From: Candidatus Aminicenantota bacterium
Lineage (GTDB): Bacteria; Acidobacteriota; Aminicenantia; UBA2199
Reading direction: 5' to 3'
Assembly (NCBI GenBank): GCA_030610885.1
Contig: JAUWQW010000014.1
Coordinates: 1 to 34,898 of the forward strand
DNA: 34,898 bases
The notes beneath the pieces are model-generated. The model ran no database searches. It saw only the letters and a program-made list of their open reading frames with translations, and was not told where the DNA came from. Position numbers and translations under genes: made by a program. How positions within the stretch are numbered: the stretch's first letter is position 1; the number at the start of each line of letters is the position of its first letter. Positions 22,422 to 31,836 of the stretch are shown here, piece after piece.

Positions 22422-22464
22422 TAAGAAAAGGGAGATTCCTGAGGTTCTTCTCACACAAAAATCT
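22422..22464. repeat. Direct repeat copy A flanking the sigma54/peptide locus
   Basis: taagaaaagggagattcctgaggttcttctcacacaaaaatct; matches 26041-26083. Confidence 0.8.
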
Positions 22465-22560
22465 TATTTATGAAAGAAATAAAATTTAATTTGACAAGTA
22501 TGTTTTAATTTGTGAAAATGTAAGCAAATTTAGTTAAGCATAAATAAATCAGGAGATTGA

Positions 22561-24015
22561 ATGCTTGAGATAATAAAGAACAAGATATGGGAGCTATTAA
22601 AAGACAAGGAAGTTTCATTAGTGATGATCTTTCACAGAGACGGAGAGATTCTGTGGCATAGAGGTAGAGAGATTAGAGGTAAGTCAATTGAAAAAGGTGA
22701 GGGTTTTTGCAAGAGTTATATAATAAAAAGTATGAAGGATTTAAAAGGAGTAGAGAAAGAAGATATATTAGTAACACTATCAGGTGAAGGTGGTTCGGAT
22801 TCAGCTGAGTATTTATCAATAAAGAGTTTATTGATATTGCCTATATTGCCTGTATTAATATTGCCTATGAAAGATGAATTTTTCCTATATATAGATAGTG
22901 GTAGTAAAGAGTTTTTTACAGAAATGGAGATAAATTCATTCAGGTTACTTGGAGGGTTGTTATGTGAGGCATTTCATTATATAAGGCAGAGGAGTGGTTC
23001 CAAGGAGATTACAGGTGAAAGTGATATAATTGAAGGTATACGAGATTTGGTATTGAAATATTCAATTGAGGATGAGCCTGTTTTATTGACAGGAGAGACA
23101 GGTTCAGGCAAGACACATATAGCTAAGTTAATTCATAATTATTCAGGTAGGAGAGGAAAATTTGTTTCAGTAAGTACACCTTCTATGCAAGAGACTCTTT
23201 TTGAGGGTACATTATTTGGTCATAAGAAGGGATCATTTACAGATGCGATAACTGATAAAAAGGGATTGGTAGAGGGAGCAGAGGAGGGTACGTTATTTTT
23301 TGATGAGATATCAGAGGTACCTATATCATGTCAGTCGAAGTTATTGAGGTTTATAGATACAAAGAGATATAGAGTGTTAGGAGAGAATAGGGAGAGAGAA
23401 GCAGATGTAAGAATTATAGCAGCGACAAACAGGGATTTATCCGAAGCAATTAAGAACAAGGATTTTAGAGAGGATTTATATTATAGGTTGAATACCTTTG
23501 AGATAGAGATACCTCCGTTGAGAGAGCGTAAAGAAGATATAAGAGAATTTGTATTGGAAAATGCAAGGTGTTTAAAGGGTAAAGTCATGGGGCAAGGTTT
23601 TTGGGAGGAATTAGAGAATTATAATTGGCCTGGAAATATAAGGGAGTTGATATCAGTGATGAAACGTGTTGGAGTGTTGAGTAAGAATCATGAATTAACA
23701 GGAGAAGATGTTAGGGCAAGTATTGCTCATTATTCATATAGAGATAAATTAAATTATAATAAAAGCAGAGAAGATAAGTTAAGCAACATATGGAAACAGA
23801 TAGAGTCTGGAAAAACATTCTGGGAAGTTGTATGGAAACCCTTTATGGACAGGAAACTTAATCAGATTGAAGTAAGGACAATAATAGATAGAACATATCA
23901 AGAGGCTAATTTAAAATTAAAAAATACAGCAAAAAATCTTGGTATACAAGAAAAAGATTATAAAAAATTTTTAATTTATTTAAAAAGACACAAAGTTTAC
24001 CCTAAAGGTAACTAA
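22561..24015 (+). CDS. Sigma54-dependent enhancer-binding regulator with GAF-like N-terminus
   Basis: TGETGSGKTH Walker A, GHKKGSFTDA (GAFTGA variant), GTLFFDEIS, RIIAATNRDL, DLYYRLNTFEIEIPPLRERKEDI; HTH_8-like C-terminus. Confidence 0.93.
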   Translation: MLEIIKNKIWELLKDKEVSLVMIFHRDGEILWHRGREIRGKSIEKGEGFCKSYIIKSMKDLKGVEKEDILVTLSGEGGSDSAEYLSIKSLLILPILPVLILPMKDEFFLYIDSGSKEFFTEMEINSFRLLGGLLCEAFHYIRQRSGSKEITGESDIIEGIRDLVLKYSIEDEPVLLTGETGSGKTHIAKLIHNYSGRRGKFVSVSTPSMQETLFEGTLFGHKKGSFTDAITDKKGLVEGAEEGTLFFDEISEVPISCQSKLLRFIDTKRYRVLGENREREADVRIIAATNRDLSEAIKNKDFREDLYYRLNTFEIEIPPLRERKEDIREFVLENARCLKGKVMGQGFWEELENYNWPGNIRELISVMKRVGVLSKNHELTGEDVRASIAHYSYRDKLNYNKSREDKLSNIWKQIESGKTFWEVVWKPFMDRKLNQIEVRTIIDRTYQEANLKLKNTAKNLGIQEKDYKKFLIYLKRHKVYPKGN

Positions 24016-24113
24016 TATGTTGGCATAGGCAACTGATTTGTTACCCTATCATTATTAGCTTATAATAAGTGTATATGGATTTTTCATTAAATAAAGGTAA
24101 CAGATATGTTACC
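24007..24113 (+). promoter_or_regulatory. Cluster of three GGYAAC-N6-GTTRSC inverted repeats (candidate upstream activator sites)
   Basis: 24007-24024 GGTAACTAATATGTTGGC; 24028-24045 GGCAACTGATTTGTTACC; 24096-24113 GGTAACAGATATGTTACC. First two are 21 bp apart. Confidence 0.75.
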
Positions 24114-24186
24114 TGTTCTCAAATTAATAAAAATCAAAAAAATCCCAAAACTCTTATTATTGCTTGCTTTTTAAATTTTATCTACT

Positions 24187-24203
24187 TTGGCATCATTCTT
24201 GCC
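24187..24203 (+). promoter_or_regulatory. Sigma54 -24/-12 promoter
   Basis: TTGGCATCATTCTTGCC; GG (24189-24190) and GC (24201-24202) separated by exactly 10 nt. Confidence 0.82.
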
Positions 24204-24308
24204 TATAGTATATTTAAGGTTAATGTTAAAAGTTTTGTGAAGAAAAGGCTTTAATGACTTTAAAAGATAAACTTTTGACATTACGTAAATTTAAAAAAGG
24301 AGGAAACA

Positions 24309-24515: not shown

Positions 24516-24545
24516 TCAGGAAGGAGGATAATTTCTCCTTCCTGA
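24516..24545 (+). terminator. Intra-operon hairpin (attenuator or mRNA-processing/stability element)
   Basis: TCAGGAAGGAG-GATAATTT-CTCCTTCCTGA perfect 11-bp stem; no U-run, so probably partial read-through. Confidence 0.6.
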
Positions 24546-24555
24546 TCTTATTAAA

Positions 24556-25560
24556 ATGAGAAAAAAAATATATTATTTAATTTTATTTTTTACTATTTTC
24601 TTATTTTCATATTGTAATAGAAATAGTAGTTTAAGTTATAAATTAATCTCTCCTGAAATTAAATCTACAGAAACCATTTATCGTTCAGAGAATATTCCCT
24701 TTGTTTCATGTCAAGCAAGGATTAAGAATAAGATAATTGCCATTTCAAATGATATTGTGTTAATAGATTTAGATAAAAAACAAGATAGAATCATTTTTAA
24801 GAATGGGATAGGACCAGATCAAGTATATAAACCTTCTCGTTTAAGAATATATAATCAAGATATTTATATAAACTCTTTTTATCCATTAAACCATATCTTC
24901 AAAATATCGGGTATAAATGAAGAAATAAAATTAGAGCAAGTTAATTTTGGGATCAATAGTTTTGATATAGACGACCTTAAATTTATCTCTGAGGACACAT
25001 TGGTTTTGGCTAATGTCTATTGGCCAGAGCATTTAATAAAGATTTATGATTCAAAAAAGCATAGGATATTAAAAAAGATTAGGAAATCCAAAAAAGATAA
25101 GTTGATGATGAAATTTAATATAAATAAAGCTTCAATTTGTGTGGTTAAAGATAAATTATATATTATAGAGAGTATTGCACCTGAAATTATTGTCTTCTCT
25201 CTTAAAAAATATACAATGGTTGAAAAAATAGTTCTTAATCCTCCTTTTTATAAACCTCATCCAAAAAAATATAAAGTAAAAAAATATGATGATAAAAGCC
25301 ATAAACAATGGATGTCTTCATGGACTTCAATAAATAATATTTTAACTGATAAAGCATGGATTTTAATTAAGTATAAGAAAGGGTATGAACCACTATATTT
25401 TTATGAATTTATAGACTTAAAGAATAAATCTAACAGGTTATATATTCCCGAAACGTCTAGTAACATATTCGAATTTAGTATAGAAAAAGATTTAATAAAA
25501 GTCTGGGCAACAAAATTAGATGGAGAGAATATTGAATGGATAACAGAAAAATATTTGTAA
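24556..25560 (+). CDS. Lipoprotein, probable 6-bladed beta-propeller type
   Basis: Lipobox-like FSYCNRN; 334 aa beta-rich; KNGIGPDQVYKPSRLRIYNQDIYI blade-like pattern. Confidence 0.65.
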   Translation: MRKKIYYLILFFTIFLFSYCNRNSSLSYKLISPEIKSTETIYRSENIPFVSCQARIKNKIIAISNDIVLIDLDKKQDRIIFKNGIGPDQVYKPSRLRIYNQDIYINSFYPLNHIFKISGINEEIKLEQVNFGINSFDIDDLKFISEDTLVLANVYWPEHLIKIYDSKKHRILKKIRKSKKDKLMMKFNINKASICVVKDKLYIIESIAPEIIVFSLKKYTMVEKIVLNPPFYKPHPKKYKVKKYDDKSHKQWMSSWTSINNILTDKAWILIKYKKGYEPLYFYEFIDLKNKSNRLYIPETSSNIFEFSIEKDLIKVWATKLDGENIEWITEKYL

Positions 25561-25988
25561 TCCTTTTAATACTTTTATTATCATTTTGCTCAAAAAAAAA
25601 TGCCCAAAACGATTATATTCTTAAAGAATGTGACAGTGAGTTTCTTCTCTATTCAGATCCTTCAACAGATTGTTGTTCTTGTATAAAGACTGCTTTGTTA
25701 GCATTAGATAGATACTATAATAAAGATAGGCAAATATATATTCTTTTAAAGAAATCGAGTATAGTTGACAATTTTATAAGCTCTATTGAAAGCGAATTTG
25801 AACACAACAGGCTTATTTTTTTGAAAAAAGCACCCTTTTTATTAAGAGTACCACATCCATCTATCCTTTTTCTTCAAAATGGTAGAATCTATATGTATAT
25901 TTATATTACGAATGATGAATTTTTACTATCTAAAAATATTCAAAAAGTAATAAAATTACTAAATTTTTTTTATATTCAAGCAGAATAA
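25536..25988 (+). CDS. Thioredoxin-fold-like lipoprotein with CCSC motif
   Basis: LLLSFCSKK lipobox; FLLYSDPSTDCCSCIKTALLALDRYY; RVPHPSILFLQNGRI candidate cis-Pro region; overlaps upstream gene by 25 nt. Confidence 0.65.
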   Translation: MDNRKIFVILLILLLSFCSKKNAQNDYILKECDSEFLLYSDPSTDCCSCIKTALLALDRYYNKDRQIYILLKKSSIVDNFISSIESEFEHNRLIFLKKAPFLLRVPHPSILFLQNGRIYMYIYITNDEFLLSKNIQKVIKLLNFFYIQAE

Positions 25989-26040: not shown

Positions 26041-26083
26041 TAAGAAAAGGGAGATTTCTGAGGTTCTTCTCATACAAAAATCT
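26041..26083. repeat. Direct repeat copy B flanking the sigma54/peptide locus
   Basis: taagaaaagggagatttctgaggttcttctcatacaaaaatct. Confidence 0.8.
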
Positions 26084-26185
26084 CATTAGAAAAGAATTAG
26101 AAAATGAATTTACCAAGTATTCTAGTAAAATGAACGAATTAAATAAATTTCAAGAAGAATACTTGCTGTCAGAATTATAAAAGAA

Positions 26186-27291: not shown

Positions 27292-28200
27292 GGGGTCAGG
27301 TCTTGTTTTTTGCATTGTTAATTAATATGTGATAAAATTTAAATATGTCACGTCCATTAAGGATTGAATTTGAAGGTGCTTTTTATCATATTATTTCAAG
27401 AGGCAATGAGAAATCTGAAATATTTAGGGATACTAAAGATAGAAAGGATTTCCTTGGGATTATAGAACTTTTGGTTAAGCGTTATCATTGGAAAATTCAC
27501 ACTTATTGTTTAATGGATAATCATTATCATCTGTTGATAGAAACACCGTTACCTAACTTATCTACTGGAATGAGGCAATTAAACGGGATTTACACCCAGG
27601 GTTTTAATCGGAGATGGGATCGAGTAGGTCATTTATTTCAGGGTAGGTTTAAGTCATATATTGTTGAAAAGGAGAGTTATCTTTTGGAATTAAGCCGTTA
27701 TATTGTTTTGAACCCGGTACGAGCTGGTATTGTTAGAAATGTTGAGGACTGGGAGTGGTCCTCCTATAGGATTTTATCTGGAATTAAAAAGAAAAAGGAT
27801 TTTATATTTACAGATACTTTATGGTCATATTTTTCAAGCGATGTTATTGATGCCCAAAAGGAGTATAGAGATTTTGTTTATTCTGGTGCAGGGCAAGATG
27901 ATAAGTTGTTTAAATCAGCAAAAGGTGGATTTATTTTAGGTGGAGAAGGATTTGCAAAATCAATAATGCAAAAGTTGAAGACCAGAAAAATAGATGAAAT
28001 TACCAGAAAAGAGAGATATCCGGATCGTCCTGAATTAGAAAAGATATTTCATGAGAAATCTCGTGATGAGGAGGTTGATGTTGCGATTAATGAATGGGGA
28101 TATGTGTTAAAGGAGGTAGGTGATTTTGTTAATTTACATTATTCAACAGTCAGTAGGATTGCAAAAAAGATGAGTTATGCAAAAAACAAGACCTGACCCC
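27292..28200 (+). mobile_element. RAYT-type element with perfect 24-bp inverted ends
   Basis: Left GGGGTCAGGTCTTGTTTTTTGCAT (27292-27315), right ATGCAAAAAACAAGACCTGACCCC (28177-28200). Confidence 0.88.
27345..28196 (+). CDS. REP-associated tyrosine transposase (IS200-like, Y1/HUH)
   Basis: MSRPLRIEFEGAFYHIISRGNEK, MDNHYHLLIETP, GHLFQGRFKSYIVEKESYLLELSRYIVLNPVRAGIV. Confidence 0.95.
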   Translation: MSRPLRIEFEGAFYHIISRGNEKSEIFRDTKDRKDFLGIIELLVKRYHWKIHTYCLMDNHYHLLIETPLPNLSTGMRQLNGIYTQGFNRRWDRVGHLFQGRFKSYIVEKESYLLELSRYIVLNPVRAGIVRNVEDWEWSSYRILSGIKKKKDFIFTDTLWSYFSSDVIDAQKEYRDFVYSGAGQDDKLFKSAKGGFILGGEGFAKSIMQKLKTRKIDEITRKERYPDRPELEKIFHEKSRDEEVDVAINEWGYVLKEVGDFVNLHYSTVSRIAKKMSYAKNKT

Positions 28201-28445: not shown

Positions 28446-28462
28446 TGGCATAAAAATTGCTA
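28446..28462 (+). promoter_or_regulatory. Second candidate sigma54 -24/-12 promoter
   Basis: TTGGCATAAAAATTGCT; GG and GC separated by exactly 10 nt. Confidence 0.7.
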
Positions 28463-28501: not shown

Positions 28502-28630
28502 ATGGGTAATGGCAAGAATTTTATGAAAAGTGGGCATCCGCAGCACAAAAAACGGCAGCTAAAGGAAGAAATATTGCTGTTTGGTGCGCTTTTCCACAGG
28601 AAATTTTTGACATTACGTTTTGAGAATTAA
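28502..28630 (+). CDS. Possible 42-aa small protein downstream of the second sigma54 promoter
   Basis: MGNGKNFMKSGHPQHKKRQLKEEILLFGALFHRKFLTLRFEN*; position only. Confidence 0.3.
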   Translation: MGNGKNFMKSGHPQHKKRQLKEEILLFGALFHRKFLTLRFEN

Positions 28631-30162: not shown

Positions 30163-31836
30163 ATGGTGCCTAAAGTTATCCATAATGATGAACCTACAAG
30201 TGTTGACGGATTGAATCGGGACCATTTTGCACACGCCCTTGCACGAATAGCTGAGACATGTGATACACCACTAGTAATAGGTCTTTATGGTACTTGGGGA
30301 ACAGGTAAAACCTCTCTTATGAAGCTCATAGAGAAAAAATTGAACCCAATGGAAACGCACTCTGTTTGGTTTAATGCCTGGCAACACCAATTTGATGAAA
30401 CTCCTGCTCTTGCTTTACTTCACACAATCGTGGACAAATTTAAAATGAAGCAAGAGGCAAAAAAACTCCTAATGGTAATTGCAGGGGCATTTGGAACGAT
30501 GCTGCTGAAAGCAACAACAAATTTGAACATAAAAGATATCGACAATCTTGGCAAACGATATGAAGAAGAACGTTTTCTTGTTGGAGAAGCCCGTGTACGT
30601 CTACATCAGCATTTCAAGCATCTGATTAAAAAAGCAAGAGGAAAGCGTCGGATTGTTTTTTTTATTGATGATCTAGATCGATGTATGCCTTCTAAACTGC
30701 TAAATTTATTAGAATCATTGAAGCTGTATCTTAACCTTACTGGGTGTATATATTTTTTAGGAGCTGATCGAACAGCATTAGAACGGAGCATACAATATCA
30801 TTATAAAGATGTAGAATTAAATGAAGCTAGGTATCTCGACAAAATAGTTCAACTTCCTTTCACTATTCCTCCTATTGCACAAGAGTCAATGGAGGAGTTT
30901 GTTGAACCGTTATTATCAAAAAATTTAATACATTGTAAAAAGTTACTGATAAAAGGTCTTGGTGATAATCCTCGGCAAGTTAAAAGATTTATTAACACTT
31001 TAACATTGAATCATCAACTTGCGCTTAGCTTGAATATTTCTGCATATAATCCAAAAGTGCTTGCTTTGTTGCTATTGATCCAATTACGCAACTCTAAACT
31101 GTTTAGGATAATTGTAAATCAGCCGGCCATATTACAAAAACTGAAACAAACCAGCGATAAAACGAAAGCTCTAAGAGATGAATACTTAGAAAAGGATATT
31201 AAATTAAAAGAAGCTCTTGATTTAGTCGATCTTCCATCAGTTGGATTATTCTCACAGTATATCTATTTAACTCAGATAGCCAGAGTAATCAAAGATGAAG
31301 CTGAGCCAGAGGATAAATTAAATTTGAAATTAATGCTTTCAGATCACCAAAAATGGTTTTACTCAGGAGGTAAGACAGGCCGGCGATTGAACCTCGGCGG
31401 AGCTGACCTCATTGGAGTCGACCTCAGTAAAACCAACCTCCGTGAAGCTGCCTTTAGCGGAGCCAATCTCAGTGAAGCTAACCTTCGTGAAGCCGACCTT
31501 ACAGGAGCCCACCTCAGTGGAACCAAGCTAGATGGAGCCAACCTTCAGAAAGCCCTCCTTATAGGAGCCTACCCTACTGATGCGCGCTTTCGTAAAGCTT
31601 TCCTTCAGGGAGCCAGCTTTCAGGGAGCCAAACTTATGAGAGCCAAACTTCAGGGAGCCGACTTCGAGAATGCAGAACTTGAGAGGGCAAATCTCAGTGA
31701 AACTGACCTCAGCGAAGCAGAAAATTTAACTCTCGAACAACTATCCAAAGTAAAAACCCTTTATAAAGCCAAATTAGATCCAAATATTTTGGGTCAGATC
31801 AAAGAAAAATATCCTCATCTTTTGAAAAAACCATAA
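30163..31836 (+). CDS. KAP-family P-loop NTPase with C-terminal pentapeptide repeats
   Basis: GLYGTWGTGKTSLM Walker A, IVFFIDDLDRC, then repeated A(D/N)LxxA pentapeptides (residues ~408-525). Confidence 0.9.
   Translation: MVPKVIHNDEPTSVDGLNRDHFAHALARIAETCDTPLVIGLYGTWGTGKTSLMKLIEKKLNPMETHSVWFNAWQHQFDETPALALLHTIVDKFKMKQEAKKLLMVIAGAFGTMLLKATTNLNIKDIDNLGKRYEEERFLVGEARVRLHQHFKHLIKKARGKRRIVFFIDDLDRCMPSKLLNLLESLKLYLNLTGCIYFLGADRTALERSIQYHYKDVELNEARYLDKIVQLPFTIPPIAQESMEEFVEPLLSKNLIHCKKLLIKGLGDNPRQVKRFINTLTLNHQLALSLNISAYNPKVLALLLLIQLRNSKLFRIIVNQPAILQKLKQTSDKTKALRDEYLEKDIKLKEALDLVDLPSVGLFSQYIYLTQIARVIKDEAEPEDKLNLKLMLSDHQKWFYSGGKTGRRLNLGGADLIGVDLSKTNLREAAFSGANLSEANLREADLTGAHLSGTKLDGANLQKALLIGAYPTDARFRKAFLQGASFQGAKLMRAKLQGADFENAELERANLSETDLSEAENLTLEQLSKVKTLYKAKLDPNILGQIKEKYPHLLKKP

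Follow-up and report, generated by a model that had tools for sequence, protein, structure and literature searches.

A putative self-contained sigma54 switch for peptide genes in a Candidatus Aminicenantota bacterium, with a private enhancer array that co-varies with the predicted recognition helix of its regulator

Sigma54 activators are abundant and, to our knowledge, the way in which their residues read individual bases is poorly known. A locus in a Candidatus Aminicenantota bacterium, analysed here within a window of 34,898 nucleotides (the whole stretch of contig JAUWQW010000014.1 that was presented), carries such an activator directly followed by inverted repeats and a sigma54-type promoter. 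It raises the question of which sites the regulator recognises and whether those sites are its own. Sequence comparison across related loci makes it very probable that this locus is a local, self-contained sigma54 switch serving peptides that are exported or modified, working through a private operator that co-evolves with the regulator. Its upstream half consists of the following elements:

22561 to 24015, plus strand: sigma54 activator (bEBP) of 484 aa, assigned from PF00158, AlphaFold models and Foldseek
23950 to 23988, plus strand: codons of the predicted recognition helix, residues 464-476, EKDYKKFLIYLKR, placed by the model helix and by covariation with the UAS
24007 to 24024, plus strand: UAS site 1, GGTAACTAATATGTTGGC, overlapping the regulator stop codon
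24028 to 24045, plus strand: UAS site 2, GGCAACTGATTTGTTACC, 21 bp from site 1
24096 to 24113, plus strand: UAS site 3, GGTAACAGATATGTTACC, ending 73 bp before TTGGC
24187 to 24203, plus strand: -24/-12 sigma54 promoter, TTGGCATCATTCTTGCC, with a core common to the paralogous loci C92 and C102

The first-pass annotation had described three inverted repeats and a -24/-12 element here, and all four sequences were found where it had placed them. The three sites share GGYAAC-N6-GTTRSC, as it had noted, and this pattern has no other match in the 34.9-kb window. The stop codon of the regulator (TAA, 24013-24015) does lie inside site 1, and the centres of sites 1 and 2 are separated by 21 bp, the two helical turns that had been proposed, and those of sites 2 and 3 by 68 bp. 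The sites are upstream of the promoter, but the earlier range of about 75-195 bp was slightly long: we measured 73 bp (end of site 3) to 180 bp (start of site 1) to the start of TTGG. TTGGCATCATTCTTGCC itself has the GG-N10-GC arrangement of a sigma54 promoter, and transcription would start near 24214. A fit free of any positional constraint, which sought three 6-N6-6 palindromes sharing one half-site in the stretch from the regulator stop to the promoter, picked exactly sites 1-3 (33 of 36 matches), a result equalled by none of 60 dinucleotide shuffles. Once the 21-bp geometry was required, the score was 37 of 42, again equalled by no shuffle (0 of 200).

Pattern and profile searches of the genome showed that the site pair is unique to the locus. 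Sites 1 and 2, taken together as a 39-bp unit, occur once in 2.5 Mb with three mismatches allowed, and exact GGTAAC-N6-GTTACC also occurs once. The motif is private and not genome-wide, so that the enrichment test suggested for it would fail although the idea behind it is right; relatives of the regulator in the same genome have different sites. The genome does encode rpoN (PF04552, E 2.5e-45, at C101), the lack of which had been named as a ground for refutation.

The regulator matches PF00158 (E 2e-56, 190.6 bits) and is composed of a GAF-like region (residues 1-144), an AAA+ domain (151-316), a linker with an FWEVVWKPF motif and a predicted HTH (435-476). Structure matches give the AAA+ domain an NtrC1/FleQ type fold, and its loop reads GSFTDA, a variant of GAFTGA, as is looked for in an AAA+ domain that interacts with sigma54. 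For the N-terminal 144 residues the best structural match is 2qyb (probability 1.00, E 3e-3, TM 0.6). In the structure model the C-terminal helices span residues 435-448, 453-459 and 464-476. No Pfam HTH family was matched at the C-terminus (hits up to E 0.1), and because this includes the Fis-type model (PF02954), the HTH call is based on a model built from a 15-sequence alignment together with the covariation described below. When the HTH alignment was used as a profile against the PDB, the hits were at chance level only, and a scan of the genome's contigs returned distant AAA+ matches only. Paralogues in the same genome are cut by contig ends, and their regulators are seen only in part.

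The regulator is present in 25 of 60 relatives and, with a profile of the C-terminal region, in 35 of 142 genomes of the class. We compared sixty regulator loci, including that of the window. A promoter scoring at least 19, with weights that were hand-set before the control counts, was found within 350 bp after the regulator stop in 39 of the 60, and in 1 of 60 reverse complements, 0 of 60 reversed sequences and 0 of 48 upstream controls; in about one third of the 60, either no promoter reaches the threshold or three sites cannot be fitted clearly. Under the unconstrained fit, 26 of 44 loci place sites 1 and 2 exactly 21 bp from each other, and across 41 loci the mean excess palindrome score was 4.16 at 21 bp compared with 0.7-1.3 at the other spacings from 17 to 26. 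The gap between the end of site 3 and TTGG is most often 72-73 bp; smaller peaks at 60-61 and 85 lie about a helical turn to either side. On contig C5 of the same genome, an extra gene stands between regulator and enhancer and the 21/73 geometry is kept.

Two further promoters of this genome were rejected as family members: that at C102, where the sites are of another type (GTGTAAA-N5-TTTACAC) and no 21-bp pair was seen, and that at C122, which follows a response-regulator type activator and has long repeats. The same HTH type exists outside the class, where most of 20 loci examined lack sites and a nearby promoter. One locus of another class, L192, has a promoter scoring 22.0, sites 21 bp apart and a 72-bp gap; its sites are of the ATACC type, as its helix predicts, with a score that does not beat all shuffles.

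While the geometry is shared, the letters of the half-site change from locus to locus. They read GGTAAC in the window and TTCGTT and ATACCC at C92 (as TTCGTT-N6-AACGAA) and C5 of the same genome, and at other loci we found TTCGGA, GTTAGA, TTACG, TAAACC, GTCTACC, TTCTGG, GTCAGG and others. Over 25 loci, which were selected for good fit so that the correlation describes well-fitted loci and not all, UAS similarity correlates with HTH identity (r = 0.59, and 0.60 given AAA+ identity, Mantel p 0.0005), and the correlation with AAA+ identity given the HTH is 0.02. By segment, the correlation is 0.21 for the AAA+ domain, 0.20 for the linker, 0.28 for helix A and 0.43 for helix B, and it is strongest (r = 0.64) for the recognition helix segment, residues 464-478. 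The nearest HTH neighbour also predicts the UAS (similarity 0.78 versus 0.48, permutation p 0.0002, 23 loci with duplicates removed).

Individual loci follow the same trend, those outside the 25-locus set in part. Regulators with the FLIYLKR HTH have related half-sites, GGTAAC in the window and GTCAAC and GGTAAC in genome G045, and L105, which is outside the 25-locus set, has the FLDFL helix of the TTCGGA regulators and TTCGGA-type sites. These comparisons support the earlier prediction that the motif belongs to the regulator's own HTH, in that the geometry follows the regulator family and the half-site co-varies with the predicted recognition helix. In G045 and in G035 one site type is present in two copies; for the most part the loci of the family differ in half-site, suggesting that each activator would serve mainly its own operon. 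The 25 loci, a tandem pair among them, thereby combine one geometry with varied half-sites and recognition helices, and yield predicted activator/promoter pairs that should not cross-talk. They also offer a testable residue-to-base rule, YHKFMTFLHDY going with GTTAGA and YHKFMRF[LI]HEQ with (G/A)TTACG.

How the two change together is suggested by copies within one genome. The window and C92 are identical at 90 of 90 bases of the left flank up to the HTH, fall to 54% in the HTH and 36% in the UAS region, and return to 90% over promoter and leader. The tandem copies of G044, whose regulators are almost identical outside the recognition helix, agree at 98.6% over the 1,070 bp of GAF and AAA+, at 71% from the recognition helix to the stop, at 46% in the UAS region (with GTTAGA and GTTACG sites, respectively) and at 90% over promoter and leader. 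In both comparisons one block, made of HTH and enhancer, holds most of the differences, between flanks that are 90-100% identical. We give about even chances to the proposal that the HTH and its enhancer array are exchanged together, as one block that sets specificity. Since the operators lie directly behind the HTH codons, a single recombination could replace both. If so, block exchange would provide duplicated sigma54 peptide loci with new private operators and leave sensor, motor, promoter and leader unchanged, a route by which duplicated peptide loci could escape cross-activation, and the fixed geometry would turn these loci into a natural recognition-code experiment for sigma54 activators. 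The sensor parts of same-genome copies are very similar where they can be compared, and a need for separate operators does not follow from them.

The mosaic may have arisen by block exchange or from flanks homogenised by gene conversion, and the latter is part of the main competing explanation: ordinary gene-adjacent sigma54 control, in which HTH and UAS drift slowly at each locus and conversion outside the operator keeps the flanks identical. We regard this as possible though somewhat improbable. In Clostridiales, too, most activators act on a single operon next to them, and the more alike the DNA-binding domains, the more alike the UAS (PMC6615313); gene conversion could account for the 98.6% identity of the gene bodies in G044. 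Sharp edges such as those of the block that differs between the window and C92 do not arise from drift alone, while conversion that spared exactly the HTH and UAS block could produce them.

Whether the palindromes are protein sites at all also had to be considered. Site 1 overlaps a stop codon and site 3 with its flank is terminator-like on the minus strand, as would be expected of terminators of the regulator gene or of RNA structures. A terminator scan called none of the three on the coding strand and no Rfam family matched in the window, and on these grounds we rejected that reading; the arms are, moreover, repeated at 21 bp within the locus and covary with a protein helix, which leaves it barely credible. 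The genome also has about ten other sigma54 activators, any of which might own the sites. That the sites belong to one of them is very unlikely: across loci they track the recognition helix of the adjacent gene, not its AAA+ domain.

Downstream of the promoter, the locus continues as follows:

24273 to 24285, plus strand: end of the conserved 5′ leader, TTTTGACATTACG, with 18 exact copies in the genome
24309 to 24494, plus strand: open reading frame for a 61-aa peptide with a signal-peptide-like start, EALGGAIP and two Cys
24516 to 24545, plus strand: terminator-like stem of 13 bp with a T-rich tail, between the peptide and the next gene
24556 to 25560, plus strand: probable lipoprotein of 334 aa, no family match
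25536 to 25988, plus strand: probable lipoprotein of 150 aa with DCCSC, overlapping the 334-aa gene, no family match

A paralogous peptide at C18 has the same first 26 aa (the signal region up to EALGG) and a different tail, and is followed by a gene for a 6-bladed propeller (PF17170). At other loci, too, the genes in the position of the 334-aa lipoprotein encode 6-bladed propellers; a propeller fold was looked for in the window's protein and no support was obtained. The first genes of family loci often encode small GG-leader or cysteine-rich peptides, others often have a signal-like start, and radical-SAM enzymes are found at several loci. The reversed control of TTTTGACATTACG has no copy in the genome.

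We propose that the 22561 regulator binds three 18-bp palindromes that begin at its own stop codon, two of them on the same helix face and the third ending 73 bp from the promoter. In line with NorR (PMC2941729), the three sites together would most likely seat up to three dimers and nucleate the AAA+ ring. A signal reaching the GAF-like domain would let the ring contact the sigma54-polymerase at 24187 by looping and so drive expression of the short exported peptide; some transcripts would read through the 24516 stem and reach the two lipoprotein genes. Recognition helix and operator would change together, their adjacency allowing both to change as one DNA block.

Several other elements were observed. 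Copies of TTTTGACATTACG mostly stand about 20-25 nt ahead of a start codon; one is at 28605-28617 of the window. At eight or more of these places the motif forms the end of a dispersed repeat of about 113 bp (ATCTCCCTGAAATGCAGATTTTAAC...), several near contig ends, and the two copies examined had no Rfam match. Direct repeats of 47 nt, 94% identical, at 22422-22468 and 26041-26087 lie on either side of the regulator, peptide and lipoprotein genes. At 28446-28462 there is another sigma54-like promoter, TTGGCATAAAAATTGCT, preceded by a stretch similar to the one upstream of the C102 promoter. At C102 (L022), a GG-leader peptide (MATINKTNSLKEVKVSELKEEEIAKIKGG...) with the same promoter core and GTGTAAA-N5-TTTACAC sites precedes a radical-SAM type gene reading CNLRCIYC, with no adjacent activator in the examined stretch. 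The window also holds a gene resembling REP-associated tyrosine transposases (27345-28196; 76.6 bits, just under the cut-off of 80), enclosed by perfect 24-nt inverted repeats, GGGGTCAGGTCTTGTTTTTTGCAT (27292-28200), and a KAP-type NTPase with pentapeptide repeats (30163-31836) whose partial similarity to QatA is far under the cut-off.

Compared with described systems, the parts are of known kinds; the fixed geometry, the linked co-divergence and the mosaic pattern appear new when judged against the open-licence literature, and an earlier description of the family elsewhere is possible. At norVW, NorR needs three enhancer sites for ring assembly and ATPase activity (PMC2941729), and the window regulator likewise joins a GAF-like sensor to an AAA+ sigma54 activator with three enhancer sites adjoining its gene. 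It differs in that there is no norVW target and the operon makes an exported-looking peptide, in that the half-site varies by locus, and in that the sites lie on the 3′ side of the regulator gene, where they overlap the stop codon; against the NorR model it scores 229 bits, under the cut-off of 476.

Sigma54 regulons in Clostridiales and Desulfovibrio often comprise one activator and one neighbouring operon with its own UAS motif (PMC6615313, PMC4641369), and, as here, motif similarity in Clostridiales follows that of the DNA-binding domain (PMC6615313). Unlike those collections, the loci described here belong to a single family of related regulators, with spacings that are fixed at 21 bp and mostly 72-73 bp, their same-genome copies differ mainly in HTH and UAS, and their sites are not the TGT/ACA half-sites 9-12 bp apart that make up many Clostridiales and Desulfovibrio motifs. 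The paralogous C92 locus resembles the GG-leader radical-SAM clusters (TIGR04148/04149/04150): behind the same promoter it has a GG-leader peptide, a TIGR04148 maturase (446 bits, cut-off 300) and a TIGR04150 pseudo-rSAM protein, also over its cut-off. The window peptide, by contrast, has a signal-peptide-like start and no GG leader, and no TIGR04148 maturase was found beside it. Sigma54 has been linked to the cell exterior (PMC3162934), and the peptide or signal-like first genes at family loci fit this link. Finally, a LacI-family study (PMC2978694) similarly used regulators adjoining their operators to derive amino-acid/base rules, for a different regulator family with a different HTH. For sigma54 activators, the shared layout with its changing sites makes such a protein-to-DNA recognition code directly testable.
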